DNA of 64,000 bases from Winogradskyella vincentii (GTDB lineage: Bacteria > Bacteroidota > Bacteroidia > Flavobacteriales > Flavobacteriaceae), in the NCBI RefSeq assembly GCF_020166345.1, contig NZ_JAIUJS010000001.1:434001-498000 (forward strand), given 5' to 3'. Positions within the stretch are counted from its first letter, which is position 1, and the number at the start of each line of letters is the position of its first letter. Of this stretch, positions 7,282 through 43,259 are shown in pieces. The position numbers and the translations under genes were made by a program. A model generated the notes under the pieces. It was not told the DNA's origin. It saw nothing but the letters and a program-made list of their open reading frames with translations, and did not search any database.

Positions 7282-7598
7282 AATTAATTACTCTATTTCA
7301 AAGCCTAAGTTATAAATCATTGTTGAGTAATAAATCAATTTTTTCAAAAACACTAGTTTTTAGACCCGAAATCGATTTCGGAAGAAATTGCTCATAGATT
7401 TTTAGCTACACACAAAAAAATATTCAATTATTAAGTCTTTTGAACATCATATAATTATTTACTTAAATATCTGATATACTGACACTTAAATAACTCTAAA
7501 GTACACTGAATTTAGCGTCTAATTAAAAATTCAATAATCATTTAGAATGTTCAAAAGTAATTTAGTCATAGATAAATACTTTACGCTTAAACTATTCT
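7282..7598. other. Divergent intergenic region between sugar transporter and ilvD
   Basis: 317 bp without a convincing gene. The transporter side holds the palindrome at 7366-7381. The ilvD side is AT-rich and should carry the ilv promoter, but no exact TAnnTTTG element, leader peptide rich in branched-chain codons, T-box or other riboswitch could be recognised. Confidence 0.6.
7366..7381. promoter_or_regulatory. Operator-like perfect 16-bp palindrome before the sugar transporter operon
   Basis: CCGAAATCGATTTCGG is perfectly self-complementary, with the central CG typical of LacI-family operators. The core plus flank matches the site at 2351 in the form CGAAAnnnnTTTCGGAA. It lies 85 bp upstream of the transporter start, so it could be an operator for the LacI-type regulator at 2439. 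Confidence 0.65.
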
Positions 7599-9278
7599 AT
7601 GAGTCAATTAAATAAATTTAGTAAAACTGTCACTCAAGATCCGACTCAACCAGCAGCACAAGCCATGTTGCATGCCATTGGTTTAACCAAAGAAGATTTT
7701 AATAAACCAATTATAGGAATCGCTAGTACTGGTTATGAGGGTAACCCTTGTAACATGCACCTCAATGACTTGGCAAAACTTGTTAAAAAAGGCACTCAAA
7801 ATGAAGATGTTGTAGGATTGATTTTTAACACTATTGGTGTAAGTGATGGTATATCAATGGGAACGCCGGGAATGCGTTATTCATTGCCATCTCGTGATGT
7901 AATTGCAGATTCTATGGAAACTGTTGTTCAGGCAATGAGCTATGATGGTTTGGTGACTGTTGTAGGCTGTGATAAAAATATGCCAGGAGCTTTAATGGCA
8001 ATGATTAGACTAAATAGGCCATCCATATTAGTTTATGGAGGAACTATTGATTCTGGGTGTCATAATGGCAAAAAATTAGATGTGGTATCAGCATTTGAGG
8101 CATGGGGAAGCAAAGTGGCTGGAACCATGACTGAAAATGAGTTTCAAAATATTGTTGAAAAAGCATGTCCAGGAGCTGGAGCTTGTGGTGGAATGTACAC
8201 TGCAAATACAATGGCAAGTGCAATAGAAGCACTGGGAATGGCATTGCCTTATAACTCATCAAACCCAGCATTGAGTAATGCTAAAAAACAAGAATCTATT
8301 AACGCTGGCGAAGCAATGAGAGTGTTACTAGAAAAGGATATAAAGCCATCTGATATCATAACCAGAAAATCCCTTGAAAACGCAGTTAGACTTGTTACAA
8401 TTCTTGGTGGCTCTACTAATGCGGTGCTTCACTTTCTAGCAATTGCTAGAGCTGCTCAAATTGATTTTACATTAAAAGATTTTCAAGATATAAGCGATAA
8501 CACACCTTTCTTGGCAGATTTAAAGCCTAGTGGTAAATATCTTATGGAAGATGTTCATGAAGTAGGTGGAATTCCTGCAGTGATGAAATACCTTCTTAAG
8601 AAAGGATTGCTTCATGGCGAATGCCTAACAGTAACAGGCAAAACTTTAGCTGAAAATCTTTTGGATGTTGAAGATTTAACAGAAGGACAAGATGTTATTA
8701 AACCAATTGAAGAGCCAATTAAGACAACTGGTCATTTACGCATGCTTTATGGCAACCTTGCTGAAGAAGGTAGTGTTGCGAAAATAACCGGAAAAGAAGG
8801 TTTAAGTTTTAAAGGAAAAGCAAAAGTCTTTGAAGGTGAATACGCCGCAAACGATGGTATACGAGATGGAAAAGTTGAAAAAGGCGATGTTGTGGTGATA
8901 CGATATGAAGGTCCAAAAGGTGGACCAGGTATGCCTGAAATGCTCAAACCAACTGCTGCAATAATGGGTGCAGGCTTAGGCAAAGATGTCGCTCTAATTA
9001 CAGATGGTAGATTCTCAGGAGGAACTCATGGTTTTGTCGTTGGACATATCACACCCGAAGCGCAAGAAGGAGGTACAATTGCTTTTGTACAAGATGGAGA
9101 TACTATCACTATAGATGCAGAAACAAATACAATTTCTGTAGAAGTTTCAGAAGAAGAATTACAGAAAAGAAGACAAAATTGGAAAGCACCTAATTTAAAG
9201 TTTAAACGTGGTGTACTTTACAAATATGCAAAAACAGTTTCATCGGCATCAAAGGGCTGTGTGACTGACGAATTTTAA
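7599..9278 (+). CDS. ilvD: Dihydroxy-acid dehydratase
   Basis: 559 residues, full length. It dehydrates 2,3-dihydroxy-3-methyl(iso)valerate to the 2-oxo acids of valine and isoleucine synthesis in the cytoplasm. The three iron-sulfur cysteines are visible: Cys51 (NPCNMH), Cys124 (GCDKNMPG) and Cys196 (GACGGMY). The C-terminal family motif [10 protein letters not shown] is also present. It is the first gene of an ilvD-B-N-C-A operon, 36 bp before ilvB, and divergent from the sugar transporter. Confidence 0.97.
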
Positions 9279-9314
9279 TATAAAATCTCTGGCATAATTT
9301 TCTAAGAGATTAAA

Positions 9315-11060
9315 ATGAATACTATGAAAGAAACGCAAACTCTAAAAAACAAAGCACAAAATAAAGATGCTTCTGTTCGTATAACAGGGAGTGAAGCTAT
9401 TGTTAAATGCTTGTTAGAAGAAAATGTAAAAACTGTTTATGGTTATCCAGGTGGAGCCATAATGCCATTATATGACGAGTTTTATAAATATCAGGATAAG
9501 ATCCATCATGTATTAACAAGACATGAGCAAGGTGCTACACACGCAGCTCAAGGGTATGCCAGAATTTCTGGAGACGTTGGTGTTGCCATTGCAACTTCGG
9601 GTCCTGGAGCAACTAATTTAATTACTGGTATTGCAGATGCTCAAATTGATTCTACACCTTTAGTTTGTATTACAGGCCAAGTACCATCTCATCTTTTAGG
9701 AAGTGATGCGTTTCAAGAAACAGATATTGTTGGTATATCTACGCCAGTAACTAAATGGAATCATCAAATAACAAAAGCATCTGAAATCCCAGAGGTTTTA
9801 GCAAAGGCATTTTATATTGCAAAAAGCGGCAGACCTGGTCCTGTTTTAATTGATATCACAAAAGACGCTCAGTTTGAAGAGTTTGATTTTAATTATGAAA
9901 AATGTAAAGGCATACGAAGTTACAAACCCGTGCCTAAAACTGATGAGAATTCGCTTGTTGAAGCAGCAAAATTGATTAATGAGGCAAAAAAACCATTAAT
10001 AGTTTGGGGTCAAGGTGTCATTCTAGGAAAAGCAGAAAAAGAATTTAAAGCTGTTATTGAAAAGACTGGAATCCCATCTGCTTGGACCATTTTAGGTGTT
10101 TCAGCTATACCTACATCACATCCATTAAATGTTGGAATGGTTGGTATGCATGGAAATTATGCGCCAAATGTACTAACTAACGAATGTGATGTTCTTATTG
10201 CAATAGGCATGCGATTTGACGATCGTGTTACTGGTAATTTAGCGACATATGCCAAACAGGCTAAAATTGTTCATTTTGAAATTGATCCTGCCGAAGTTGA
10301 CAAAAATGTAAAGACCGATGTAGCAGTTTTAGGAGATGCGAAAGACAGTCTTGAAAAATTACTTCCGCTTCTAAAAGAAAACACTCATGCAGAGTGGCGT
10401 CAGAAATTCAAAGATCTTTATAAGATTGAATTTGAAAAAGTAATTAAGAACGATTTATACCCTACCAAGGAAGGTCTTACCATGGGTGAAGTATTAAAAG
10501 AAATTAATACACAAACCAAAGGAGAGGCTGCAATAGTTAGCGACGTCGGCCAGCACCAAATGGTAGCTTGTCGTTATGCGGAGTTTAATCAAACCAAAAG
10601 TAACATCACCTCAGGTGGACTTGGTACTATGGGCTTTGGTCTACCTGCTGCGATAGGCGCTAAAATGGCTGCTCCAGAAAGAGAAGTTATTTCAATCTGT
10701 GGTGATGGCGGATACCAAATGACCATACAAGAGTTGGGCACCATCTTTCAACAAAAAGCTGCCGTTAAGGTTGTGGTTCTAAACAACGATTTCTTAGGCA
10801 TGGTAAGACAATGGCAACAATTATTTTTCGATAAACGCTATGCATCTACAGAAATGGTCAATCCAGACTTTGTTGCTATTGCAAAAGGTTATTATCTAAA
10901 TGCAAAACGCGTTTCAAAACGTGAAGAACTTGCAGATGCTGTTGCAGAAATGGTAGCCAGCAAAGAACCATATTTCCTAGAAGTATGCGTGGAAAAAGAA
11001 GATAATGTGTTTCCAATGATACCATCAGGTGCAACGGTTTCAGATATAAGATTAGAATAA
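9315..11060 (+). CDS. ilvB: Acetolactate synthase, large catalytic subunit
   Basis: 581 residues of a thiamine-diphosphate enzyme that condenses pyruvate with pyruvate or 2-oxobutyrate. It has the N-terminal TPP pyrimidine domain (YGYPGGAIMPLYDEF, catalytic Glu71 in RHEQGATHAA), the central FAD/DHS-like domain, and the C-terminal TPP/Mg site beginning CGDGGYQM and ending near NNDFLGM. ATG at 9315 is used; a second ATG three codons later is also possible. The small regulatory subunit follows 2 bp downstream. Confidence 0.97.
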   Translation: MNTMKETQTLKNKAQNKDASVRITGSEAIVKCLLEENVKTVYGYPGGAIMPLYDEFYKYQDKIHHVLTRHEQGATHAAQGYARISGDVGVAIATSGPGATNLITGIADAQIDSTPLVCITGQVPSHLLGSDAFQETDIVGISTPVTKWNHQITKASEIPEVLAKAFYIAKSGRPGPVLIDITKDAQFEEFDFNYEKCKGIRSYKPVPKTDENSLVEAAKLINEAKKPLIVWGQGVILGKAEKEFKAVIEKTGIPSAWTILGVSAIPTSHPLNVGMVGMHGNYAPNVLTNECDVLIAIGMRFDDRVTGNLATYAKQAKIVHFEIDPAEVDKNVKTDVAVLGDAKDSLEKLLPLLKENTHAEWRQKFKDLYKIEFEKVIKNDLYPTKEGLTMGEVLKEINTQTKGEAAIVSDVGQHQMVACRYAEFNQTKSNITSGGLGTMGFGLPAAIGAKMAAPEREVISICGDGGYQMTIQELGTIFQQKAAVKVVVLNNDFLGMVRQWQQLFFDKRYASTEMVNPDFVAIAKGYYLNAKRVSKREELADAVAEMVASKEPYFLEVCVEKEDNVFPMIPSGATVSDIRLE

Positions 11061-11062
11061 TT

Positions 11063-11593
11063 ATGGATAAAGAAATAAAACATTTTACAGTATCTATTTA
11101 TACTGAAAACAATATTGGATTGCTGAATAGGATTTCAGCAATATTCCAAAGAAGACATATCAATGTAGAGAGTTTAAATACATCTAGATCAGAAATTGAA
11201 GGCGTGTCGAGATTTACTCTTGTAGTGGATATTACTGAAGATCAAATGAAAAAAATCATTGGGCAATTAGAGCGACAGGTCGAAGTAATAAAAGCATACT
11301 ATCATACAGACGAAGAAACAATCTATCAAATATCTGCAATGTTTAAAATTAAATCTGATTTGTTGTTTGAAGAACGTCAGATTCAAAATATCATTAAAGA
11401 AAGCAACGCTAGAATTGTCACGGTAAACAAAGAGTTTTTTGTTCTAGAAAAATCAGGTAGAAAACAAGAAATAGACTTACTATATAGGGAGTTAAGTGCA
11501 TTTGGCATCATGCAATTTGTGCGCTCTGGACGTATAGCGGTTACAAAAAATCAAATGGAAATATCAAAAATGCTAGAAGCATTTCAACATTAA
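11063..11593 (+). CDS. ilvN: Acetolactate synthase, small regulatory subunit
   Basis: 176 residues. An N-terminal ACT domain (residues about 6-80; VSIYTENNIGLLNRISAIFQ, then HINVESLN) binds the feedback valine in this family, and a C-terminal ALS-regulatory domain follows. It partners the large subunit encoded 2 bp upstream. It is also called ilvH in some genomes; the length fits either name. Confidence 0.95.
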   Translation: MDKEIKHFTVSIYTENNIGLLNRISAIFQRRHINVESLNTSRSEIEGVSRFTLVVDITEDQMKKIIGQLERQVEVIKAYYHTDEETIYQISAMFKIKSDLLFEERQIQNIIKESNARIVTVNKEFFVLEKSGRKQEIDLLYRELSAFGIMQFVRSGRIAVTKNQMEISKMLEAFQH

Positions 11594-11605
11594 AACAAAA
11601 AGAAA

Positions 11606-13105
11606 ATGTCAAATTATTTTAACACCTTACCACTAAGGAAACAATTAGAACAATTAGGAAAATGCCGTTTTATGGATGCTTCAGAATTTGAAGATGGCGT
11701 TGATGCATTAAAAGGTAAAAAAATCGTAATTATTGGTTGTGGAGCACAAGGTCTCAATCAGGGATTAAACATGAGAGATTCTGGTTTGGATATTTCTTAT
11801 GCATTAAGACCAGCTGCAATTAAAGAACAAAGGGCTTCTTATAAAAATGCAACCTCAAATGAGTTTAACGTAGGGACATATGAAGAATTAATCCCAACTG
11901 CAGATGTGGTACTTAATTTAACACCAGATAAGCAACATACAAACGTTGTAAAGTCTGTTATGCCACTTATGAAAAAAGGGGCGACATTAAGTTATTCTCA
12001 TGGATTTAATATTGTTGAAGAAGGAATGAAAATCCGTGAAGACCTTACGGTAATAATGGTTGCTCCTAAATGTCCAGGGACAGAAGTTAGAGAAGAATAT
12101 AAGCGAGGATTTGGTGTGCCAACACTTACAGCTGTTCATCCAGAAAATGATCCAGAAGGAAAGGGCTGGGCTCAAGCTAAAGCTTATGCTGTAGCAACAG
12201 GTGGCCATAGAGCTGGTGTTTTAGAATCCTCATTTATTGCTGAAGTAAAATCAGATCTAATGGGTGAACAAACTATCTTATGTGGATTGTTACAAACTGG
12301 AGCTATTTTATCCTTTGATAAAATGGTAGAAGAAGGTATTGAACCTGGATATGCCGCAAAACTGATTCAATTTGGTTGGGAAACAATTACTGAAGCACTT
12401 AAACATGGAGGTATCACCAACATGATGGATAGATTATCTAATCCGGCTAAGATTAAAGCCTTTGAAATTTCTGAGGAACTTAAGGGAATTATGCGTCCAT
12501 TATTTGAAAAACATATGGATGACATTATCTCTGGTCATTTTTCAAAAACCATGATGGAAGATTGGGCTAATGATGATGTTAATTTATTAAAGTGGCGAGA
12601 GGCAACAGGCGAAACAGCTTTCGAAAAAACTGCTTTAACATCAGATCACATTACAGAGCAAGAATATTTTGATAACGGCACCTTATTAGTAGCATTTGTT
12701 AAGTCTGGTGTAGAATTAGCTTTTGAAACAATGGTAAGTGCAGGTATAATAGAAGATTCTGCTTACTATGAGTCACTCCATGAATTACCATTAATTGCAA
12801 ATACTATAGCACGTAAGAAACTATTCGAAATGAATCGTGTAATTTCTGATACTGCAGAGTATGGCTGTTATTTATTTGATCATGCTTGTAAACCATTATT
12901 AGCTGACTTTATGAAAACGGTTGATTTATCAGTAATAGGTAAACCATATTCAAATACAAACGCTGTAGATAATGTAGAATTAATTGCTGTAAATGATGCA
13001 ATCAAAAATCACCCAATTGAAGAAGTTGGGCAAAGATTACGTGCAGCAATGACAGCAATGAAAGTTATTAAAACTGCATCTGTGGAGGATTCCGTTTTAG
13101 CATAA
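11606..13105 (+). CDS. ilvC: Ketol-acid reductoisomerase (class II, long form)
   Basis: 499 residues, the length of long (class II, E. coli-like) enzymes with a duplicated C-terminal helical domain. It isomerises and reduces acetolactate or acetohydroxybutyrate with NADPH and Mg. The Rossmann motif [18 protein letters not shown] lies near residues 43-60. The acidic metal-binding helices typical of the knotted domain follow ([12 protein letters not shown], then a second set with DNGTLLVAF). It is the middle gene of the ilv operon, 12 bp after ilvN. Confidence 0.96.
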
Positions 13106-13134
13106 ATTGCAAAAATGTATTTATTACATATTGG

Positions 13135-14403
13135 ATGAAACAAACCGACACAACATATAAACCCTCTTTAAAAGCTGTTGAAACAGCTGCTGAAAAACTA
13201 CATGGAATTGCCAATGTAACTCCTCTCATGAAGAATGCAAGATATTCTAAGCATTTTGATGCTAATATCTATTTCAAGAGAGAAGATTTACAAGAAGTAC
13301 GTTCATATAAAATCAGAGGTGCTTATAATAAAATTTCATCCTTGAGTAGTACTCAAATAGAAAATGAAATTGTTTGTGCCAGTGCTGGAAATCATGCTCA
13401 AGGTGTAGCACTTTCATGTAAACTATTAAAAATAAAAGGTACAATTTTTATGCCTGCTCCAACACCTAACCAGAAAATTGAGCAGGTAAAAATGTTTGGT
13501 GAAGATTATATAAATGTGGTTTTAATTGGTGATACATTTGATGACGCCTATAACGCTGCAATTGAAGAATGTGAAAAATTGAATAAAACCTTTATTCATC
13601 CATTCAATGATGAAAAGGTAATTGAAGGGCAAGCTACGGTTGGTTTAGAGATAATAGATCAATTTAAATCACATCCAATCGATTATGTATTGGTACCGAT
13701 TGGTGGTGGTGGATTATCAGCTGGTTTATCTTCAGTATTTGCAGTGTTGTCACCACAGACCAAAATTATTGGTGTTGAACCGAAGGGTGCTCCATCGATG
13801 CTAACATCAATAAAAAATAATAGAAACACAGAATTAAAATCAATTGAAAACTTTGTTGATGGCGCAGCTGTTAAACGTGTCGGTGATTTAAATTTTGCTA
13901 TCTGCAAAGAAACATTGCATGATGTTATTACTGTTGACGAAGGAAAAATTTGTCAAACCATATTAGATCTTTATAACAAAGATGCAATTGTTGTTGAACC
14001 AGCAGGTGCATTAAGCCTTTCAGGTTTAGAACAATACAAGGAACATATTAAAGGCAAAAATGTGGTTTGCATAGTCAGTGGTAGTAACAATGATATTACA
14101 AGAACAGCAGAAATAAAGGAACGAGCCTTATTATATGCTAATCTTAAACACTATTTCATAATTAAATTCCCTCAGAGATCTGGAGCTTTGCGTGAATTTG
14201 TAGCTGAAATTCTAGGTCCAACAGATGATATTACCCATTTTGAATATACCAAGAAGACCAATCGTGAAAATGGAGCTGCTGTCGTTGGCTTACAATTAAA
14301 ATCTCCAGAAGATTTAGAACCATTGATTACAAAAATGAAGCTTCATAATTTTTATGGAGACTATCTAAACGACAAACCCGATTTATTTCAATTCTTAGTT
14401 TAA
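13135..14403 (+). CDS. ilvA: Threonine dehydratase (biosynthetic type)
   Basis: 422 residues. The PLP fold has the Schiff-base lysine at Lys59 (SYKIRGAYN) and the phosphate-binding glycine loop GGGGLSAG near residues 186-193. It converts threonine to 2-oxobutyrate for isoleucine. A single C-terminal ACT-like regulatory domain (from about residue 335; [16 protein letters not shown]) is present rather than the two of the E. coli enzyme, so it is the shorter regulated form. The ATG at 13135 lies 29 bp after ilvC; an upstream ATG at 13115 is out of frame. Confidence 0.94.
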
Positions 14404-14414
14404 AGAAAAATAAA

Positions 14415-15992
14415 ATGACTATACCAGAAAAGTATCAAATTAAAGAGACTTTAAATCAAAATACTTACTTAGTAAACGGCGAATTAAAAGCTTGGACAGG
14501 AGATACTTCAGAGGTCTACTCTACCATTTCGTCAACCAAAGATTATCAACCAACCTTATTAGGCACAATCCCAACACTAGGTGAGCCTGAGGCACTTGAA
14601 GCACTTGACTCTGCGGTTAAGGCCTACGGTAAAGGACAAGGATTATGGCCAACTATGAAGGTTGCTGATAGAATTTCATGTATGGAAAAATTTGTTGAAC
14701 AAATGAAAACCAAACGTGAAGAGGTAGTGAAACTTTTAATGTGGGAAATAGGTAAAAATCTACCTGATTCTCAAAAGGAGTTTGATAGAACGGTGGAATA
14801 TATTTACGACACCATAGAGGACTATAAAAAAATGGACCGAGACAGTGCTAAGTTCGAAAAACATGGTGGTGTCCATGCCCATATAAGAAGAGGACCTTTA
14901 GGAGTTGTTTTATGTTTAGGACCTTATAATTATCCTCTCAATGAGACATTTGCTTTGCTTATTCCTGCATTGATTATGGGTAACACTGCAATTTTTAAAC
15001 CGGCAAAATTTGGTGTGCTTTTACTAACCCCATTATTAGAAGCTTTTCAAAGTAGTTTCCCAAAGGGGGTTGTGAACATCATTTATGGAAGAGGAAGAAC
15101 TGTTGCTACACCTATTATGAGAGATGGCCGTGTAGATGTATTGGCTTTAATTGGGAACAGTAAATCAGCAAACGCTTTACAGAATGAACACCCAAAAAGT
15201 AACCGTTTAAGAATGGTTTTGGGCTTAGAAGCTAAAAATCCAGCGATTGTCTTACCAGACGCTGACTTAGAACTTGCCATTAGTGAATGTATCGCAGGAA
15301 CAACCTCTTTCAATGGTCAACGCTGTACAGCTTTGAAGGTTTTATATGTTCATGAAGACATTATCGAAAAATTCAATACGCTTTTTTCTGAAAAAGTCGA
15401 CGCCTTAAAATTTGGGAACCCATGGGAAGATGGAGCAAAACTTACACCTTTACCAGAACCTGATAAGCCAGCATATATTCAAGAATTAATTGATGATGCT
15501 ACTTCTAAAGGAGCCAAAATAATCAATAAAAAAGGTGGAGAAACCACCGAAAACTATATCTTTCCTGCTGTTTTATATCCAACTTCAAAAGAAATGAGGG
15601 TATACGAGGAAGAGCAATTCGGACCGGTAATTCCAATTGTACCGTTTTCAGATATTGAAGAACCTTTAGATGATATGGCATCATCTAATTACGGACAGCA
15701 AGTAAGTCTTTTTGGCAAAGACACAAAAACATTAGCTCCATTAATAGACACCTTAGTTAATCTAGTTTGTCGTGTTAATTTAAACAGTTCTTGCCAAAGA
15801 GGACCAGATGTGTATCCTTTTACCGGTAGAAAAGATTCTGCTGTCGCCACCTTAAGTGTTCATGATGCACTTAGATCATTTTCAATTAGAACATTTGTTG
15901 CATCTAAAGACAATGAATACAATAATGAAATACTTAAAGAGCTATTAGATTCAAAAGCATCAAACTTTGTAAGTACAGATTATATTCTTTAA
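14415..15992 (+). CDS. gapN: NADP-dependent non-phosphorylating glyceraldehyde-3-phosphate dehydrogenase
   Basis: 525 residues of the aldehyde-dehydrogenase superfamily, GapN-like. Catalytic residues are visible: Asn172 (GPYNYPLNE), Glu272 ([11 protein letters not shown]) and Cys304 (NGQRCTAL). The family oxidises glyceraldehyde-3-phosphate directly to 3-phosphoglycerate and makes NADPH. It starts 11 bp after ilvA with no terminator between, so it is probably cotranscribed with the ilv genes, whose IlvC step uses NADPH. The exact substrate is assigned by family resemblance. Confidence 0.85.
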
Positions 15993-16078
15993 TAGATAGG
16001 TTATAATATGATTTTAACAATATTGATTATGAATAATTTACAAATCCATAATTTTAATTAAAATGTTTCTTTTAAGTA

Positions 16079-16108
16079 TTGTCAATAAAAATATAATATG
16101 TAGTTTAG
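16079..16108 (+). promoter_or_regulatory. Probable flavobacterial promoter for the arginine leader
   Basis: TTG at 16079-16081 and TAGTTTAG at 16101-16108 (consensus TAnnTTTG, one mismatch) are separated by 19 bp, the usual spacing of Bacteroidota sigma-ABfr promoters. Transcription would begin at or just before the leader ATG at 16113. Confidence 0.5.
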
Positions 16109-16112
16109 TCTT

Positions 16113-16184
16113 ATGATTGTACAATTCAATATCAATAGAGACCGCATTCCCTTTGGGATTACAACTGCATTTCGCCGTCGCTAA
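16113..16184 (+). CDS. Putative arginine leader peptide, 23 residues ending Phe-Arg-Arg-Arg
   Basis: ATG at 16113, stop TAA at 16182. Five of 23 residues are Arg, and the last three codons before the stop are CGC CGT CGC. In argG downstream, seven of eight Arg codons are AGA, one is CGA and none is CGC or CGT, so this run is not background codon use. It begins just after a promoter-like element and lies inside a hairpin closed by AATAGAG (16134-16140) with CTCTATT (16207-16213). The arrangement matches ribosome-stalling leader peptides of amino-acid operons; function is inferred. Confidence 0.6.
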   Translation: MIVQFNINRDRIPFGITTAFRRR

Positions 16185-16213
16185 TAATCTGTTTAGCAAT
16201 ACAAACCTCTATT
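16134..16213 (+). promoter_or_regulatory. Leader RNA stem-loop enclosing the Arg codon run
   Basis: A 7-bp helix (AATAGAG at 16134-16140, CTCTATT at 16207-16213) encloses two smaller hairpins: TCCC-TTT-GGGA near 16148-16158, and GCTAA (16180-16184) with TTAGC (16193-16197), whose 5' arm contains the leader stop codon. A ribosome on the Arg codons would open this structure. Confidence 0.45.
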
Positions 16214-16231
16214 AATTAATCATTTTTTATT

Positions 16232-16327
16232 GTGCATAATTCAATTTTTACATATCACTCACTAATCACAGTTATCTCGAAAGATAACCATTTGTTGATT
16301 CGCCGTATTTTATCACGTCGCCCGTAA
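16232..16327 (+). CDS. Possible second Arg-rich mini-ORF
   Basis: Reading frame of about 31 codons from GTG 16232 (or 10 codons from TTG 16295) to TAA 16325. It ends Ile-Arg-Arg-Ile-Leu-Ser-Arg-Arg-Pro, with the Arg codons CGC CGT and CGT CGC. There is no ATG start, so translation is uncertain. The repeat of rare Arg codon pairs just before a stop, as in the first leader frame, is what makes it notable. Confidence 0.3.
   Translation: MHNSIFTYHSLITVISKDNHLLIRRILSRRP
16271..16288 (+). promoter_or_regulatory. Perfect 7-bp hairpin with CGAA loop in the arginine leader
   Basis: GTTATCT-CGAA-AGATAAC is a perfect stem-loop in the middle of the leader. It has no T-run after it, so it is a structural rather than a terminator hairpin. 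Confidence 0.5.
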
Positions 16328-16345
16328 GGGTATGTATTCATTCTT

Positions 16346-16373
16346 GGAACTTAGGTGAGTCCGGTTCCGTTTT
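16346..16373 (+). terminator. Terminator-like hairpin before the arginine operon
   Basis: GGAAC (16346-16350) pairs with GTTCC (16364-16368), followed by G and TTTT. Its loop (TTAGGTGAGT, 16351-16360) is complementary to ACTCACTAA at 16257-16265 with one bulge, so an alternative long-range pairing exists. The stem is short and the T-run weak, so it is only a candidate attenuator terminator. Confidence 0.35.
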
Positions 16374-16418
16374 CAAAACAATAATTACAATAAATTCTTT
16401 AATTCAAATTCAATTACA

Positions 16419-17042
16419 ATGCAAATTGTTATTGCAAACAAATCACATAGTATTTACGCAGAAATCATCTGTGACACAATTGCTGAAGCTGCACAGGTTA
16501 GAGGAACTGGTATTGCAAAGAGAAAACCAGAATACATTATCAATAAAATTATTAACGGCAATGCTGTTATAGCATTAGATGATGAAAAATTTGCAGGATT
16601 CTGTTATATAGAATCCTGGGGACATGGAAAATTTGTTGCAAACTCAGGCTTAATTGTACATCCAGATTACAGAAAGATAGGGCTGGCAAAAAAAATAAAA
16701 AAGGTAGTCTTTGAACATTCAAGGAATAAATTCCCAGATTCAAAAGTATTTAGCATAACAACAGGTCTCGCGGTTATGAAAATGAATAGTGAACTTGGAT
16801 ATAAACCAGTTACTTTTTCTGAGCTTACAGATGACCAAAGTTTTTGGGATGGTTGTCAAACTTGTAAAAACTACGACGTTTTACAACGTACCGAACAAAA
16901 AATGTGTTTATGTACAGGAATGCTATATGATCCAGCCAAAGAATTAAACAAAAAAGAACAAAAACATAATTACGATAAAAAAGTATGGACAAGATTAAAA
17001 AACATAAAACAGACCATCCTTTTAAAAAAAGATAAAAAATGA
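16419..17042 (+). CDS. GNAT-family N-acyltransferase, first gene of the arginine operon
   Basis: 207 residues. A GNAT domain spans about residues 1-135 with the acyl-CoA pyrophosphate loop RKIGLAKK (85-92). A C-terminal extension carries four cysteines in a C-x2-C ... C-x-C pattern (Cys146, 149, 163, 165), possibly metal-binding, and a lysine-rich tail. No other N-acylglutamate synthase (ArgA or ArgJ) is in the cluster, so this is the best candidate for the first step, acetylation or succinylation of glutamate; this is inferred. It overlaps argG by 4 bp (ATGA). Confidence 0.75.
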   Translation: MQIVIANKSHSIYAEIICDTIAEAAQVRGTGIAKRKPEYIINKIINGNAVIALDDEKFAGFCYIESWGHGKFVANSGLIVHPDYRKIGLAKKIKKVVFEHSRNKFPDSKVFSITTGLAVMKMNSELGYKPVTFSELTDDQSFWDGCQTCKNYDVLQRTEQKMCLCTGMLYDPAKELNKKEQKHNYDKKVWTRLKNIKQTILLKKDKK

Positions 17043-18223
17043 AAAAGTTAGTCATAGCATATAGTGGTGGATTAGATACATCTTATTGCGCACTTAGTTT
17101 AAGTAAAGCTGGTTATGAAGTTCATGCTGTTTCAGTAAATACCGGCGGATTTACAGATGAAGAAATCAAGGAGATTGAATCTAATGCCTATAAAATGGGT
17201 GTTTCTACTTATACGAATATTGATGCCATTAAAACTTACTACAACAAGGTTATTAAATATTTAATTTTTGGCAATGTACTAAAGAACAATACCTATCCAT
17301 TATCAGTTAGTGCAGAACGAATTATACAAGCCATCGAAATAATTGAATATGCTAAAAATATAGGTGCAGAATTCATTGCACACGGTAGTACAGGTGCTGG
17401 TAACGACCAAGTAAGATTTGATATGATCTTTCAAACCCTTGCTCCAAATATAAAAATCATAACGCCAATTAGAGACCAACAACTATCAAGACAAGAGGAA
17501 ATTAAATATCTCGTTGAAAATGGTATTGATATGTCATGGGAAAAGGCAAAATACTCTATAAATAAAGGTCTTTGGGGCACTAGTGTTGGAGGTGCTGAAA
17601 CTTTAACTTCAGAGCAACCATTACCAGATTCGGCCTATCCATCTCAACTTAAAAAGGAAGGTAATGAAGAAGTAACATTAACTTTTGATAAAGGTGAATT
17701 AATCGCAATAAATGGAAATCAAAATGACTCTGAAAAAAATATTGAAATCCTAAATGATATTGCATCATCATACGCTATTGGGAGAGATATCCATGTGGGA
17801 GACACCATAGTTGGCATAAAAGGAAGAGTAGGTTTTGAAGCCTCTGCGGCTTTGATAATCATAAAGGCACATCATTTACTTGAGAAGCACACCCTTACAA
17901 AATGGCAGTTACAGCATAAGGATTATATATCTAATTTTTACGGAATGCATCTACACGAAGGGCAATATTTAGATCCTGTTATGAGAGATATGGAGGCAAT
18001 GCTTCAGAGTAGTCAGAAAATGGTCTCTGGAGAGGTTAGCGTAACCTTAAAGCCTTACCATTTTAGTTTGAATGGTATAAGATCAAAACATGATTTAATG
18101 AATACCAAATTTGGAAGTTATGGAGAAGAAAATAGCGGTTGGACAGCAGACGAAGCAAAAGGTTTTATAAAAATCAATGCAAATGCCAACAAAATTTATC
18201 AATTAACAAACTTGGAGTTATGA
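17039..18223 (+). CDS. argG: Argininosuccinate synthase
   Basis: 394 residues, family-typical. The ATP-pyrophosphatase P-loop AYSGGLDTSY is at the N-terminus (residues 8-17), with the citrulline/aspartate-site stretch HGSTGAGNDQVRFD around residues 115-128. It ligates citrulline and aspartate with ATP. Start and stop both overlap their neighbours by ATGA junctions, which indicates translational coupling. Its Arg codons are almost all AGA, in contrast to the leader frames upstream. Confidence 0.96.
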   Translation: MKKLVIAYSGGLDTSYCALSLSKAGYEVHAVSVNTGGFTDEEIKEIESNAYKMGVSTYTNIDAIKTYYNKVIKYLIFGNVLKNNTYPLSVSAERIIQAIEIIEYAKNIGAEFIAHGSTGAGNDQVRFDMIFQTLAPNIKIITPIRDQQLSRQEEIKYLVENGIDMSWEKAKYSINKGLWGTSVGGAETLTSEQPLPDSAYPSQLKKEGNEEVTLTFDKGELIAINGNQNDSEKNIEILNDIASSYAIGRDIHVGDTIVGIKGRVGFEASAALIIIKAHHLLEKHTLTKWQLQHKDYISNFYGMHLHEGQYLDPVMRDMEAMLQSSQKMVSGEVSVTLKPYHFSLNGIRSKHDLMNTKFGSYGEENSGWTADEAKGFIKINANANKIYQLTNLEL

Positions 18224-19197
18224 TTAAAGCAGGTATTATAGGAGGAGCTGGTTACACAGCTGGAGAATTGATAAGGTTATTACTAAACCACAAAGAGGTA
18301 AAAATCGATTTTATCTATAGCACTTCTAACGCTGGTAATTCTGTGTACCAAGTCCATCAAGATCTTGTTGGTTCTACAGAACTAAAATTTTCATCTGTAA
18401 TTAATCCGGAAATTGATGTTTTGTTCTTGTGTTTGGGACATGGTAACTCTAAAGAGTTCTTATCAAAAACCGAATTCTCAAAACCTACAAAAATTATTGA
18501 TCTGAGTAATGATTTTAGACTTGAAAAAGACGAAGTTTTTCAAGGAGAAACATTTGTATATGGATTACCAGAATTAAAAAAAGAGACCATAAAAAGTGCA
18601 ACTAATATTGCTAATCCAGGTTGTTTTGCAACGGCAATTCAATTGGGACTTCTGCCATTAGCAAATTCAGGTTTATTACAATCAGACCTGCATGTTAATG
18701 CTGTTACTGGAGCTACTGGTGCTGGAACATCGTTGTCAGCAACAACACATTTTACATGGAGAGACAATAACTTCTCATACTATAAACCTTTTACTCATCA
18801 GCACCTAGGTGAAATCAATCAAACCATAAAAAAGTTACAAAACAACTTTGAATCTGAGGTTTTATTCATGCCAAATAGAGGTAATTTTTCAAGAGGTATA
18901 TATGCAACTTTATATACTGATTATACCGAAAGTATAGAGGAGGCATATGATCTTTACGAGTCATATTATGAAAAGGCACCATTTACGGTTATTTCTAACT
19001 CACCAATACATCTTAAACAAGTAGTGAACACTAACAAATGCATCATTCACTTGCATAATCACAACAATAAGCTCCTAATAACTAGTATGATAGACAATTT
19101 GCTTAAAGGTGCTTCTGGTCAGGCCATTCAAAATATGAATTTGATGTTTGGTTTTGACGAATCCGAAGGATTAAAACTAAAAGCTAATTATTTCTAA
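18220..19197 (+). CDS. argC: N-acetyl-gamma-glutamyl-phosphate reductase
   Basis: 325 residues from the ATG at 18220, which overlaps the argG stop as ATGA. An in-frame earlier ATG at 18139 lies inside argG and would add a tail unlike the family. NAD(P)-binding motif GGAGYTAGELIRLL is at residues 8-21 and the catalytic Cys135 lies in ANPGCFATA. It reduces the acylglutamyl phosphate to the semialdehyde. The next gene, proC, starts 11 bp downstream. Confidence 0.95.
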   Translation: MIKAGIIGGAGYTAGELIRLLLNHKEVKIDFIYSTSNAGNSVYQVHQDLVGSTELKFSSVINPEIDVLFLCLGHGNSKEFLSKTEFSKPTKIIDLSNDFRLEKDEVFQGETFVYGLPELKKETIKSATNIANPGCFATAIQLGLLPLANSGLLQSDLHVNAVTGATGAGTSLSATTHFTWRDNNFSYYKPFTHQHLGEINQTIKKLQNNFESEVLFMPNRGNFSRGIYATLYTDYTESIEEAYDLYESYYEKAPFTVISNSPIHLKQVVNTNKCIIHLHNHNNKLLITSMIDNLLKGASGQAIQNMNLMFGFDESEGLKLKANYF

Positions 19198-19208
19198 AGT
19201 TAAGAATT

Positions 19209-20009
19209 ATGAAAATCGCAATAATAGGAACAGGAAATTTAGGTAAGTCTATAGCAAACGGACTTATTATCAATAATGCAATAACAACATTATACCTAAC
19301 CAAAAGAAATTTAGACGAATTAAGTGAATTTAAGGGTTACAAAAATGTGAGCCTCTCTTCAGACAATATTGAAGCTGTAAAGAATTCAGATATCTTGATT
19401 CTTGCAGTACAACCTGCACATTTAGAAAATATTTTAGTTTCAATTAAGCCATTTTTAAATGAAAATCATGTAATTATTTCTACCATTACAGGATTTAGCA
19501 TTTCCAAAATTGAAAATATAATTGGCGAGGACAATTTTATAATTAGAGCAATGCCAAATACAGCTATTGCCGTTGGTAAATCAATGACCTGTCTTTGTAG
19601 CAATGCAAAAGGAGAAAACCGTATAAAGGTCGCAATCTCTATATTTAATAGGCTTGGAAATTCAATTGTAATTCCAGAAGGTCAAATGCAAGCCGCAACA
19701 GTAGTATGTGCTAGCGGAATTGCTTTTTGGATGCGATTAATACGCGCCACTACCCAAGCAGCAATTCAATTAGGATTTGACGCTAAAGAGGCACAAGAAT
19801 TAGCAATGTATGCATCCGAAGGTGCTGCAAACTTGCTTATTACAAATGGGAATCACCCTGAAGAAGAGATAGACAAAGTTACAACTCCAATGGGTTGCAC
19901 TATCGAAGGATTAAATGAAATGGAACATAAAGGATTAAGCTCTTCATTAATACAAGGAATGGTGGCTTCATTTAAGAAAATAAATACCATCAAAAAAGAA
20001 CAAATATGA
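19209..20009 (+). CDS. proC: Pyrroline-5-carboxylate reductase-like protein
   Basis: 266 residues. The NAD(P)-binding Rossmann motif IIGTGNLGKSIANGL is at residues 4-18, and the C-terminal helical dimer domain carries the proline-enzyme signature with multiple Thr/Ala residues (VTTPMGCTIEGLNEME). The family makes proline from pyrroline-5-carboxylate. Its place between argC and argD, overlapping argD by 4 bp, ties proline formation to the arginine/ornithine branch from glutamate semialdehyde. Confidence 0.92.
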   Translation: MKIAIIGTGNLGKSIANGLIINNAITTLYLTKRNLDELSEFKGYKNVSLSSDNIEAVKNSDILILAVQPAHLENILVSIKPFLNENHVIISTITGFSISKIENIIGEDNFIIRAMPNTAIAVGKSMTCLCSNAKGENRIKVAISIFNRLGNSIVIPEGQMQAATVVCASGIAFWMRLIRATTQAAIQLGFDAKEAQELAMYASEGAANLLITNGNHPEEEIDKVTTPMGCTIEGLNEMEHKGLSSSLIQGMVASFKKINTIKKEQI

Positions 20010-21133
20010 GTTTATTCGATGTATATCCATTGTACGACGTAACACCTGTAAAGGCAAATGATGTTTTTGTTTATGGTGATGATGGTAACAAGTATCTTGA
20101 TTTATATGGAGGCCACGCCGTAATATCCATAGGTCATTCACACCCACTATATGTGAATTCAATCAAAAATCAAATTGAAAAAATTGGATTTTACAGCAAT
20201 TCAGTGCAAAATCCATTACAAAATAAACTGTCTGAGAAACTAAATGAAATTTCAGGCTGTAAAGATTATCAATTATTCTTGTGTAATTCTGGTGCCGAAG
20301 CTAATGAGAATGCAATTAAACTAGCTTCTTTTCACAATAAGAAATCAAGATTACTAGCATTTAATAACTCATTTCATGGAAGAACATCTGCTGCGGTTGC
20401 AGCAACTGATAACAAGAAAATAGTCGCGCCGGTAAATGCACAGCAACATGTGGACTTTGTTGCACTTGGTGAACTCGAAAAAGTTGAAAATATTTTAAAG
20501 GAAAATGAAACATGTGCAGTAATCATTGAATGTATCCAAGGCGTAGGTGGATTAGAACAGAGTTCAACAGAATTTTACCAAGGACTAGAAAAGCTATGTA
20601 AAGAATATAATACCTTGCTCATTGCAGACGAGGTACAGTCTGGTTTTGGGAGAACAGGTGATTTTTTTGCCTTTCAATCACACAATATCCAACCAGATAT
20701 TATATCTATAGCAAAGGGAATGGGTAACGGTTTTCCCGTAGGTGGTATTCTAATTCATCCAAAGATCGAAGCTTCTTATGGTTTATTAGGTACAACCTTT
20801 GGTGGTAATCATCTCGCATGTAGTGCAACATTGGCTGTTTTAGAGATACTTGAGAAAGAAAACCTAATGGCAAATGCCTTAATAACTTCAAAATACCTTC
20901 AAAATGCAGTCATTACTATACCTGAAGTAAAGAATGTAAAAGGGAGAGGATTAATGTTAGGGCTAGAATTTGATTTTCCAATTTCCGACTTAAGAAAAAC
21001 ACTTATTTATAAGCATCACATTTTTACTGGAAGTTCTAAAAACCCAAACCTTCTTAGAATATTACCTCCTTTGACCATAAAAAAAGAACATATAGACAGT
21101 TTAATTAATGCTTTGCAGAAAGAACTTAATTAA
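20006..21133 (+). CDS. argD: Acetyl/succinylornithine aminotransferase
   Basis: 375 residues of a class III PLP aminotransferase. The PLP lysine is Lys237 in SIAKGMGNGFPVGG. The phosphate and substrate loop CNSGAEANENAIKLA (about 93-107) and the Asp-containing LLIADEVQSGFGRTG (204-218) are intact. It transfers an amino group from glutamate to the N-acyl semialdehyde. In this cluster the acyl group may be acetyl or succinyl. Confidence 0.95.
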   Translation: MSLFDVYPLYDVTPVKANDVFVYGDDGNKYLDLYGGHAVISIGHSHPLYVNSIKNQIEKIGFYSNSVQNPLQNKLSEKLNEISGCKDYQLFLCNSGAEANENAIKLASFHNKKSRLLAFNNSFHGRTSAAVAATDNKKIVAPVNAQQHVDFVALGELEKVENILKENETCAVIIECIQGVGGLEQSSTEFYQGLEKLCKEYNTLLIADEVQSGFGRTGDFFAFQSHNIQPDIISIAKGMGNGFPVGGILIHPKIEASYGLLGTTFGGNHLACSATLAVLEILEKENLMANALITSKYLQNAVITIPEVKNVKGRGLMLGLEFDFPISDLRKTLIYKHHIFTGSSKNPNLLRILPPLTIKKEHIDSLINALQKELN

Positions 21134-21134
21134 T

Positions 21135-22070
21135 ATGAAACACTATACACACATAAAAGACTTATCTGATTTAAAAACTACGATTAAGGATGCTATTTTA
21201 TTGAAAATGGATCCATTTAAAAATCAAGACATTGGTAAAAATAAAACATTGATGATGTTGTTTTTCAATTCAAGTCTAAGAACTAGATTGAGTACCGAGA
21301 AAGCAGCTAAAAACCTTGGCATGTCAGTTATGACCTTAGATATAAACAATGTTTGGAAATTAGAATTTGAAGACGGCTCAGTGATGAATATGAATTCGAC
21401 AGAACACATCAAGGAAGCAGCGCATGTTATTTCGCAATATGCAGATATAATAGCCATTAGAGCATTTCCAACTTTGACCGATAAAAAGAAGGATGAATCA
21501 GAATTGATTTTAAAAAGTTTCATAAAATATGCAACCGTACCAATTGTTAGTATGGAAAGCGCTACTGGCCACCCTCTTCAGTCGCTAACTGATGCCATAA
21601 CAATTTCAGAATTTACGGAAAAAAGAAAACCTAAAGTTGTTTTAACCTGGGCACCACATCCTAAAGCACTTCCACAAGCAGTAGCTAATTCATTTATTGA
21701 AACAATGCAATTAATGGATGTAGATTTTACCATTACACACCCAAAGGGATACGAATTAAATCCAGAAATAGTAAAAGACTCAAATGTTACCTATAACCAA
21801 AATGAAGCATTAAAAGATGCAGATTTTGTTTATGCGAAAAACTGGAGCAGTTACAATAATTATGGTCAAATTCTAAATCAGGATACCAATTGGAAAATTA
21901 CCAAAGAAAAGTTAGGCCAAGCAAAATTTATGCATTGCCTACCGGTTAGAAGAAATGTTGTGGTTGACGACGATGTATTAGATAGTGATCAATCTATCGT
22001 TATTCAGCAAGCAAATAATAGAACATTTGCAGCACAAATTGTATTAAAAAACATCTTAGAGCAATTATAA
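21135..22070 (+). CDS. argF': N-acetyl- or N-succinyl-ornithine carbamoyltransferase
   Basis: 311 residues from the ATG at 21135, two bases after the argD stop; a longer start at 21108 would overlap argD by 26 bp and add an unlikely tail. The carbamoyl-phosphate motif SLRTR (residues 47-51) and the distal motif HCLPVRRNVVVDD are present. HCLPVRR and the absence of a typical ornithine SMG loop indicate the acyl-ornithine branch known from Bacteroides and Xanthomonas. The residue deciding acetyl versus succinyl lies near residues 88-91 (STEH) and needs an alignment. Confidence 0.88.
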   Translation: MKHYTHIKDLSDLKTTIKDAILLKMDPFKNQDIGKNKTLMMLFFNSSLRTRLSTEKAAKNLGMSVMTLDINNVWKLEFEDGSVMNMNSTEHIKEAAHVISQYADIIAIRAFPTLTDKKKDESELILKSFIKYATVPIVSMESATGHPLQSLTDAITISEFTEKRKPKVVLTWAPHPKALPQAVANSFIETMQLMDVDFTITHPKGYELNPEIVKDSNVTYNQNEALKDADFVYAKNWSSYNNYGQILNQDTNWKITKEKLGQAKFMHCLPVRRNVVVDDDVLDSDQSIVIQQANNRTFAAQIVLKNILEQL

Positions 22071-22846
22071 TGAAATCTCTTAAAGTCATAAAAATAGGTG
22101 GTAATATTATTGATGACCAAAAAAGTCTAGATGAATTCTTAGAGACTTTTACAAAAATTGAAGATCCAAAAATATTAGTACATGGTGGTGGGAAAATTGC
22201 CTCCGAAATGGCAAGAAGTTTAGATATTCCTGTAAAAATGTTTGAAGGTCGCAGAATTACAGATGAAGCCACTTTAGATATTATAACAATGGTCTATGCT
22301 GGTAAAATAAATAAAACCATTGTCGCTAAGCTACAATCAACTAACTGCAATGCACTAGGTCTTACTGGTGCAGATGGCAATACAATCGAAGCTGACAAAA
22401 GACCTGTGTTAAAAATTGATTATGGTTATGTGGGTGATGTAAAAAAGGTGAATTTTGAGATAATTGAAACTCTAATAAGCAATAACATCACTCCCGTATT
22501 TTGTGCAATAACACATAACAAGAAAGGGCAATTACTTAACACAAATGCAGATACAATTGCAACGGAAATTGCAATGGCTTTTGCCGATAGCTATAATGTG
22601 GAACTTTACTATTGTTTCGAAAAAAATGGTGTTTTAAATGATATTAATAATGAAGATTCAGTAATTGAACAAATAGATTCTATTTCATTCAAAAACCTAG
22701 TATCCGAAGGTATAATTGCTGATGGTATGCTGCCAAAAATAAGTAATTGCATTAATGCCGTAAACCATAATGTTGATAAGGTTTGCATAGGTAAACACGA
22801 CAAATTATTTACAAACAAAAAAGGATATACAACCATTGTAAAATGA
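22070..22846 (+). CDS. argB: Acetylglutamate kinase-like amino-acid kinase
   Basis: 258 residues of the amino-acid kinase fold, the typical short ArgB. Motifs KIGGNIIDD (residues 7-15) and VHGGGKIASEMA (residues 38-49) form the nucleotide and substrate sites. It phosphorylates the acylglutamate. There is no N-terminal extension of the arginine-sensitive hexameric type, so allosteric arginine inhibition is not suggested by the sequence. The start shares one base with the preceding stop (TAATG), and the end overlaps argE by 4 bp. Confidence 0.93.
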   Translation: MKSLKVIKIGGNIIDDQKSLDEFLETFTKIEDPKILVHGGGKIASEMARSLDIPVKMFEGRRITDEATLDIITMVYAGKINKTIVAKLQSTNCNALGLTGADGNTIEADKRPVLKIDYGYVGDVKKVNFEIIETLISNNITPVFCAITHNKKGQLLNTNADTIATEIAMAFADSYNVELYYCFEKNGVLNDINNEDSVIEQIDSISFKNLVSEGIIADGMLPKISNCINAVNHNVDKVCIGKHDKLFTNKKGYTTIVK

Positions 22847-23904
22847 TAAAGAAATTAATCCAAGACGCTAAAGAATTATTAAAAGAGCTCATTGAAACTC
22901 CTTCATTCTCCTCTGAAGAAAAGGATACAGCGATTTTACTTGAGAAGTGGTTTAAAAACTACGATATAGCTTATAAGAGAACCAAAAACAATGTTTGGGC
23001 AACAAATAAATATTTTGATGAATCAAAACCAAACTTGTTGCTTAATTCTCACCATGATACAGTAAAACCAAATAAAGGCTATACTAAAGATCCATTTAAA
23101 GCAATTGTAGAAGATGGTAAATTATTTGGCCTCGGAAGTAATGATGCAGGAGGATGTCTGGTTTCACTTTTAGCTTGTTTTACATACTTCTATTCTAAAA
23201 AGAACCTAAATTATAATATCATAATAGTGGCCTCTGCAGAAGAAGAAAGTAGTGGCCCAGATGGTTTAAATAGTATGTTATCTATTATTCCAGAAATTGA
23301 TGTGGCCATTGTTGGTGAGCCTACCCAAATGCACTTGGCTATTGCAGAAAAGGGCCTTGTGGTTTTTGATGCTAAAGTAAAAGGCACACCTAGCCATGCA
23401 GCACATCCAAACAAAAACAATGCAATTTATAATACAATTGACATTTTAAATTGGTTTAAAGATTTTCAATTTGAAAGAAAATCTCCTGTTCTAGGAAATG
23501 TGAAAATGACCGTTACCCAGATTAATGCTGGTCAACAACACAATGCAGTACCTTCGGAAGTTGATCTAGTAATAGATGTTAGAGTAAACGACAAATATAG
23601 CAATGAAGAAATCGCTAAAATTTTAAAGAAAAAATCACCTTGTGATAGTATTGAAGCAAGAAGTCTTAGATTGAACTCTTCATCTATACCCTTGAATCAC
23701 GAAATAGTTAAAGCCGGAATTGAATTGGGTCGAGAAACCTATGGTTCACCGACATTATCGGACCAAGCAACATTAAGCTGCCCATCTTTAAAACTTGGGC
23801 CTGGAGATAGTACAAGATCGCACACAGCAGATGAATTCATTTATTTAGAAGAAATTGAGGAAGGCGTTAAAATATATATAGAATTACTAAAACGAGTATT
23901 ATGA
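22843..23904 (+). CDS. argE: M20-family N-acylornithine/citrulline deacylase
   Basis: 353 residues of a zinc M20 peptidase. Metal and catalytic residues are seen in LNSHHDTVKP (His70/71, Asp72), SNDAGGC (Asp101) and ASAEEESSG (Glu133-135), with a central lid/dimer domain (TPSHAAHPNKNNA). With an acyl-ornithine transcarbamylase upstream, the natural substrate is probably N-acetyl- or N-succinyl-citrulline. It overlaps both neighbours by ATGA junctions. Confidence 0.9.
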   Translation: MIKKLIQDAKELLKELIETPSFSSEEKDTAILLEKWFKNYDIAYKRTKNNVWATNKYFDESKPNLLLNSHHDTVKPNKGYTKDPFKAIVEDGKLFGLGSNDAGGCLVSLLACFTYFYSKKNLNYNIIIVASAEEESSGPDGLNSMLSIIPEIDVAIVGEPTQMHLAIAEKGLVVFDAKVKGTPSHAAHPNKNNAIYNTIDILNWFKDFQFERKSPVLGNVKMTVTQINAGQQHNAVPSEVDLVIDVRVNDKYSNEEIAKILKKKSPCDSIEARSLRLNSSSIPLNHEIVKAGIELGRETYGSPTLSDQATLSCPSLKLGPGDSTRSHTADEFIYLEEIEEGVKIYIELLKRVL

Positions 23905-43027: not shown

Positions 43028-43132
43028 TTTTCACGAATTCATAAAAAAAGCATAAAAACTAAAATTAAATTTGGATTTTAAGTTTTTGTGATGCAATATT
43101 TGTACTCACAAAGTTCAAAAACTTACTGAAAT

Positions 43133-43253
43133 GTTATCAAGAAAGGTGGAGGGAATAGACCCACTGAAGCCTTAGCAACCCTCAGATTTACTGAGAAGGT
43201 GCTAAATTCTACTTAAACGAGCAAGTCATTTTTTGCAAGTTTGGATAGATAAC
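43133..43253 (+). ncRNA. SAM-I (S-box) riboswitch
   Basis: The S-box core is recognisable: P1 GTTATC (43133-43138) pairs with GATAAC (43248-43253), and between them lie GGTGGAGGGA, GACCCACTGAAGCC, TTAGCAACCC and AAGGTGCTAA. It binds S-adenosylmethionine and represses methionine genes. It precedes metY by 124 bp. A hairpin follows (43260-43281), but without a strong T-run, so the expression platform is not obvious. Confidence 0.95.
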
Positions 43254-43259
43254 TAAAGA

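Follow-up and report, generated by a model that had tools for sequence, protein, structure and literature searches.

The 64,000-nucleotide stretch of Winogradskyella vincentii DNA analysed here, referred to as the window, carries nine arginine/proline genes on its forward strand. They presumably form a single operon and are preceded by a 426-nt leader, which lies between the end of an aldehyde dehydrogenase gene (15992) and the start of the first operon gene (16419). A preliminary description of this DNA had placed in the leader a 23-codon ATG frame closing with CGC CGT CGC and TAA, and had interpreted it as an arginine leader peptide. The frame, the leader and the nine genes have all been found as described, and the interpretation is well supported, with the qualification that two leaders lie in tandem and that the operon-proximal one is the more widely conserved. 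This second Arg-ending frame (16232–16327), together with a conserved element at 16312–16375, had been overlooked. The frames, the promoter box and the genes are the following, the operon gene names being derived from Pfam domains and gene order.

16101–16108, forward strand: promoter -7 box TAGTTTAG, 4 nt 5' of the leader-1 ATG and one letter off TAnnTTTG
16113–16184, forward strand: leader 1, the 23-codon ATG frame of the preliminary description, MIVQFNINRDRIPFGITTAFRRR and stop
16232–16327, forward strand: leader 2, GTG start, VHNSIFTYHSLITVISKDNHLLIRRILSRRP and stop, thus ending in RRP
16419–25175, forward strand: presumed target operon, with a GNAT acetyltransferase, argG, argC, proC, argD, an argF-like carbamoyltransferase, argB, an argE-like peptidase and argH

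Tandem leader frames

GNAT is present in 98 of 149 family genomes, and the upstream DNA has been read for 90 of these 98, the window's own included (L082 was omitted after the loop-consensus step). The comparison of the relatives' 5' regions, proposed as a check in the preliminary description, has revealed that short frames with Arg codons are kept in relatives. Downstream in 81 of the 90 family leaders (the window's included) lies a core element, consisting of a hairpin P-A at the leader-2 stop and a subsequent hairpin P-B. Upstream of it, leader-1-like frames of 21–24 codons with Arg codons at their end occur in 34 of the 81 loci. These 34 remain from 40 candidates after the removal of six weak ones (L036, L042, L050, L056, L081, L084), of which L050 and L056 later displayed the stem S described below. 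The tests on leader 2, on hairpin H2, on the swapped GNAT start and on the single-class window pairs sorted the loci by all 40 candidates.

The leader-1 reading frame is open in 34/34 loci, partly by construction, as these loci were picked for having it; what carries information is the closure of the other two, open in only 1 and 0 loci. Leader 1 varies greatly in sequence among loci, its Arg residues and the S-forming stretch excepted. Codon 9 is Arg in 27 of the 34 loci and falls inside S in the window. When the 426-nt leader was shuffled 1000 times with its dinucleotide composition preserved, an ATG frame of 15–40 codons whose last 4 codons include 3 or more Arg never arose, and a looser criterion (2 Arg in the last 7 codons) was reached by 59 of the shuffles. 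The frame had also been credited with its own promoter-like element. A box is indeed located at this position, the window's copy showing one mismatch to the promoter motif TAnnTTTG. TAnnTTT has been observed at -12 to -14 from the leader-1 start in 29 of 34 loci, the window being among the five without an exact match; of 1800 positions picked at random, 223 have a match no more than 20 nt away. With the box so close to the ATG, the transcript probably starts at leader 1 with little or no untranslated sequence, as a leaderless or almost leaderless mRNA.

The codon contrast pointed out in the preliminary description is correct for argG, which uses seven AGA and one CGA for Arg and neither CGC nor CGT. 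It is milder for the 15 neighbourhood genes at 7599–25175, whose 149 Arg codons comprise 91 AGA, 26 CGT, 14 CGA, 11 AGG and 7 CGC. The 206 Arg codons of leader 1 in the 40 candidate loci are distributed over 121 CGC, 48 CGT, 16 AGA, 11 AGG, 8 CGA and 2 CGG, so that the CGC share amounts to 121/206 compared to 7/149 in the 15 window genes, which served as the reference. Upstream in the same neighbourhood, a further short frame has been noticed by eye at 7547–7615 (forward strand), with 22 codons from an ATG and with Leu, Val and Ile codons. Its 3' part runs into the gene beginning at 7599, the first of an apparent branched-chain amino-acid operon, and the frame is possibly a chance occurrence.

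A leader-2-type frame ending in RRP or RPRP is found in 72 of the 90 loci, mostly 70–110 nt upstream of GNAT, and in 14 more loci a frame with an Arg pair extends a few codons further. The exceptions are L008 and L028, which show other endings, and L038 and L087, which are without such a frame. Many loci carry the RRP-type frame as their sole leader, with an ATG start behind a TACATTTG-like box, and TAnnTTT lies within 20 nt of 18 of 37 single leaders, mostly at -15. Where a leader-1 candidate is present (37 loci), the leader-2 frame is open in 37 and the other frames in 0 and 1; in the 37 single-leader loci, the leader frame is open in 37 and the other two in 5 and 19. As these frames were selected as open, the contrast with the other frames is what counts, and in 7 of the 81 loci the frame was not settable automatically. 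The starts chosen by script for leader 2 in loci with a leader-1 candidate are 14 GTG, 17 TTG and 6 ATG. A T-rich tract before leader 2 contains TAnnTTT in 32 of 37 loci, which makes a second promoter upstream of leader 2 possible. In 11 of the 81 core loci, a count that leaves out L028 (its listed frame being leader 1), the leader-2 frame has no stop inside P-A and ends a few codons later, as in RRPLGV or RRPLGA. By eye, single-leader loci such as L057, L068 and L080 share an ACAUAU stretch a few codons past the start.

With pN/pS values of 0.77 for leader 1, 0.78 for single leaders and 0.90 for leader 2 of tandem loci, the constraint on the peptides is weak, as expected of leaders, yet this is also compatible with a constraint on the RNA alone.

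Hairpins of the leader RNA

The preliminary description had set the frame in a foldable stem. The whole leader of the window folds like its own shuffles (z -0.77), so that the case for structure rests on the comparison among loci, by which several elements are backed. The predicted elements, in the order of their position, are listed below.

16134–16140, forward strand: 5' arm of stem S (AAUAGAG) at leader-1 codons 8–10 in the predicted fold, with more pairing possible at 16117–16125
16146–16159, forward strand: hairpin H1 (AUUCCC-UUU-GGGAU), before the leader-1 Arg triplet
16180–16197, forward strand: hairpin T1 (GCUAA...UUAGC), containing the leader-1 stop codon
16207–16213, forward strand: 3' arm of stem S (CUCUAUU) in the predicted fold, just 5' of leader 2
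16271–16288, forward strand: hairpin H2 (GUUAUC-UCGAAA-GAUAAC), before the leader-2 Arg codons
16320–16331, forward strand: hairpin P-A (GCCC-GUAA-GGGU), with the leader-2 stop codon in its loop
16346–16368, forward strand: hairpin P-B (GGAAC-UUAGGUGAGUCCG-GUUCC), with GGUGNGUCC common to all aligned loci
16369–16418, forward strand: unstructured G-poor stretch between P-B and the first gene

P-B covaries strongly: full 5-bp pairing has been observed in 80 of 81 loci, whereas 1000 arm swaps, with equal freedom of register for the swapped arms, left on average 41 and at most 51 loci fully paired. The P-B stems show 28 different sequences among the 81 loci. Two alignments have been used, A1 without L004 and A2 with the 39 of 81 loci that lack an extra base in the P-B arm. 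In the 39-locus alignment, 6 of 8 P-B pairs exhibit double-sided changes, with a covariation score unreached by 500 shuffles. Within the loop region, GGUG and GUCC are invariant across 80 aligned loci, and the match of the P-B region in the R2 search has scored 59.4 bits. For P-A, the arms read CGCCC/GGGUG in 46 and GCCC/GGGU in 20 of the 81 loci, and a compensatory change is seen in L048 and L050; the 39-locus alignment contains no double changes in P-A, and 14 of its 39 loci do not form the outermost P-A pair.

The loop consensus is absent in nine of the 90 loci, although L025, L039 and L088 come close to it; leader 1 persists in four of these nine. As a side observation, L016, L019, L023 and L038 have lost the P-B loop consensus and retained leader 1 together with stem S, L038 being also without the RRP end. 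A pairing of CGCC, in the Arg codons and P-A, with the GGUG of the P-B loop was chosen by RNAalifold on A1. Both sides are nearly invariant, which renders covariation uninformative, and L048 and L050 lack CGCC at that place, so the pairing is a tentative one. The P-B stretch AGGUGNGUCC (16353–16362) resembles a Shine-Dalgarno sequence; in the sequences inspected, no start codon follows its AGGUGA at Shine-Dalgarno spacing, and the final A of this hexamer is variable. Rfam, with its T-box and riboswitch families, has returned no match up to E 10 for 16090–16430; within the window, a SAM riboswitch at 43131–43255 (forward strand, 75.9 bits) is the sole Rfam match at gathering level.

Stem S covaries as well: its mean duplex energy over 34 loci has been determined as -12.2 for native and -10.3 for swapped partners, the lowest of 300 swaps reaching -11.29. 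S-type pairing with quite different letters recurs in L048, L050 and L056 outside the main clade. A possible outer pairing of S at 16229–16237, seen in the duplex and absent from the predicted fold, would cover the leader-2 GTG. Hairpin H2 has reached z -10.6 where a leader-1 candidate is present (40 loci) and z -7.0 elsewhere (41 loci), T1 z -6.1 over 34 loci, and H1 is weak, with z -2.8 and 21 of 34 loci better than their own shuffles. A coarse scan of window pairs (12 swaps per pair; 33 tandem loci, L003 omitted, and 41 single loci) gave z -5.0 for S and -10.9 for H2 in tandem loci, with wrong-sign values of up to +5.6 in the tandem and +4.9 in the single class. H2 is the strongest pair in both classes and stands clearly above the noise only in the tandem class. 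The scan thus carries H2 in tandem loci and not S by itself, S being based on the duplex swap test.

Occurrence in the family

Within its own genome, the element gives one strong match of 73.7 bits, and the next match, at 13.8 bits, leaves no second copy above noise. An order-wide scan of 296 genomes has identified matches in 26, of which 22 belong to the same family and all lie before GNAT-argG; the other four are weak, and none of the window's arginine-operon genes were found beside them. A phylum-wide scan, likewise of 296 genomes, has yielded 13 matches within the family and nine weak ones outside. Outside the family, both scans have returned weak matches alone (E 0.0018–0.009), away from the window's arginine-operon genes, the filters being strict enough to lose weak matches. 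For the large family genus labelled g128, the listed genomes are without an element match under these filters, and its member L087 has GNAT without the element. The arginine regulator ArgR (PF01316) has not been detected in the window's own genome or in any of the 149 family genomes, with 9 of 14 control genomes positive.

A GNAT protein tree of 81 rows groups the 34 tandem loci in one clade of 39 rows (support 96/93, bootstrap unsettled). Among the remaining five, L059 is probably tandem, its leader-1 stop being hidden by an unread base, and L005, L051, L061 and L071 apparently lack leader 1 by eye and look like losses. Leader 1 is also present in the four loci without core consensus named above and, with GTG starts, in L048, L050 and L056 outside the main clade. 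Since the latter combine leader 1 with a differently lettered S, the tandem state may be older than the main clade or may have arisen twice.

Candidate mechanism and known systems

Based on the comparative evidence, which supports the frames, the placement of promoters, H2, P-B and S as structures, and the link to the operon, we consider it likely, with a probability of about 0.82, that P-A/P-B and the tandem leaders control the arginine operon by sensing arginine through leader-peptide translation. That a real regulator is present which varies the theme of leader-peptide control appears very likely from the sequences. Beyond this, we infer in which direction the system responds, that S gates leader 2, and how the last step proceeds.

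In most family members examined, the core would comprise a leader of ~20–40 codons with a hairpin before its Arg codons and its stop in P-A, followed by P-B with GGUGNGUCC. An extra layer would be present in the window, where the 23-codon leader 1 lies right behind its promoter, its early codons including Arg9 would provide the 5' arm of S, and the 3' arm would be the AT-rich tract ending at the leader-2 start. At ample arginyl-tRNA, ribosomes would clear leader 1, S would close, and starts at leader 2 would become rare; any translation of leader 2 would then reach the stop and P-A would stay open. When arginine is short, a ribosome stalled at Arg9 of leader 1 would keep S open and allow translation of leader 2, on which a ribosome stalled at the Arg codons would permit P-A and P-B to fold and the operon to be expressed. 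For the last step, termination by Rho within the G-poor region upstream of GNAT would be the most likely. We tentatively favour such a two-stage relay, at somewhat less than even odds, in which leader 1 would gate leader 2, and leader 2 would gate the operon through a new RNA element and without an intrinsic terminator, the whole standing in for ArgR in Flavobacteriaceae and the invariant loop serving as the site for a partner.

Alternatively, the relay could be purely translational, with S blocking leader 2, and leader 2 together with P-A/P-B blocking initiation at GNAT. The start region of leader 2 is within reach of S, and the distance from P-B to GNAT is held at 57–71 nt in 71 of 81 loci; it extends, however, to 73–253 nt in the other 10. 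That leader 2 might sequester the GNAT start had emerged from a consensus fold of 12 tandem loci and was rejected on the swap test: the duplex of the two has an energy of -7.57 for native and -7.99 for swapped partners in the 40 leader-1-candidate loci, and the values of -8.46 and -8.27 in the 41 others leave it unsupported there as well. Such a purely translational scheme is considered rather unlikely.

The preliminary description had implied transcription attenuation of the trp/his/leu type, in which a ribosome stalled on the leader lets an antiterminator form in place of an intrinsic terminator upstream of the first gene. End-product codons do lie in a leader peptide ahead of the operon (its translation being suggested by the comparison), the 10 nt past P-B contain 3.8 T on average in loci with a leader-1 candidate compared to 2.4 in the others, and one flavobacterial study invokes attenuation of this kind for amino-acid operons (PMC9723704). 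The defining intrinsic terminator has not been found, however, as 15950–16450 of the window contains 0 terminator-like sites, and many of the single-leader loci inspected continue after P-B with GCAAAA-like tails. Moreover, the stretch from P-B to GNAT is composed of 15.2% C and 4.7% G over 73 loci (C exceeds G in 62 of 73) and folds less than its shuffles (z +5.2, 72 loci). The lack of a terminator-like site in the window's leader and this G-poor, unstructured stretch argue against the textbook trp/his version, which we regard as distinctly improbable; such a stretch would fit a Rho-type site or else a start region kept accessible.

Another explanation would be that an arginine-sensing factor acting in trans, be it a protein, a part of the ribosome or an RNA, binds P-A/P-B, and that the frames merely keep the RNA open. 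Loop letters that are fixed in the 80 aligned loci while the stem varies freely are the mark of a recognised loop, and both the weak constraint on the peptides and the failure to find ArgR would fit as well. Against it, both frames retain their Arg codons despite divergent sequences, and in 11 of 81 core loci frame 2 continues past P-A and stops shortly afterwards, as suits translation, so that the chances of this explanation appear small. That leader 1 encodes a small functional protein is suggested by its frame being open in 34/34 chosen loci (the others in 1 and 0), and is extremely improbable given the pN/pS of 0.77, the strong sequence divergence outside the Arg codons and the S stretch, and the apparent lack of leader 1 in four members of the tandem clade (L005, L051, L061 and L071, by eye).

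Flavobacteria largely do without Shine-Dalgarno sequences, and if the favoured leader-peptide regulator is real, leader peptides would operate in such bacteria. Arginine biosynthesis would then join the operons run by leader peptides, and the control of arginine synthesis in a large family without detected ArgR would be explained. The RNA element itself is compact and strongly conserved, and its loop looks recognised, which makes it directly testable.

No arginine-biosynthesis leader of this kind has been found in the literature searched, which excluded most subscription papers. The trp, his and leu operons of proteobacteria are the familiar cases of leader-peptide attenuators. They resemble the present locus in having a short frame with end-product codons before a biosynthetic operon and RNA structure around it, and differ from it by the two tandem leaders, the amino acid arginine, the hairpin with an invariant loop, the other phylum and the absence of an intrinsic terminator found here. 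Mutually exclusive structures set by the position of the ribosome are typical of these attenuators; here, S, H2 and P-B are supported as individual helices. In erm-type translational attenuators, a helix over the downstream start is opened by translation of the leader; here, a helix is supported that extends to the start region of leader 2, and none at the GNAT start.

Leader-peptide systems have been discussed in PMC2965389, and short frames reminiscent of leader peptides have been described in Bacteroides (PMC7366714). The preliminary description had considered an arginine leader in flavobacteria to be new. In general terms, leader peptides of amino-acid operons have already been reported there: the transcriptome of Flavobacterium psychrophilum has given clues of leader-peptide attenuation before amino-acid operons, and 5' elements before pheA and hisG, among others, are said to be family-conserved (PMC9723704). 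These leaders share with ours the flavobacterial host and the position ahead of amino-acid operons; the main text of that report, however, uses the word arginine once, about cyanophycin, and names no arginine operon, and its examined portions contain no such loop element or tandem frames (PMC9723704).

Two leader frames before a gene or operon are described for Salmonella mgtCBR (PMC3641672) and for ermB with ermBL and ermBL2 (PMC8274638), which concern other genes, the signal for ermB being erythromycin. In Pseudomonas aeruginosa, a leader peptide precedes the arginine/pyrimidine operon carAB, where attenuation possibly responds to pyrimidines and arginine acts at transcription (cited in PMC4997734). 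Arg codons of the leader peptide rbfL of Staphylococcus aureus sense arginine shortage, as is proposed here; stalling on rbfL, in contrast, covers the ribosome site of the next gene and represses it, and the target is a biofilm regulator (PMC13009471). A further relative is orf34/speF of Salmonella, whose leader frame senses arginine by consecutive Arg codons and whose peptide belongs to the DUF2618 family (PMC6386406). It is a single leader before an ornithine decarboxylase, whereas the leaders analysed here are in tandem before GNAT-argG-argC-proC-argD-argF-argB-argE-argH. The speF leader has two consecutive Arg codons and combines Rho-dependent termination with sequestration of the start, a Rho-independent terminator not having been found (PMC6386406), and it thus offers a precedent for such a mix.
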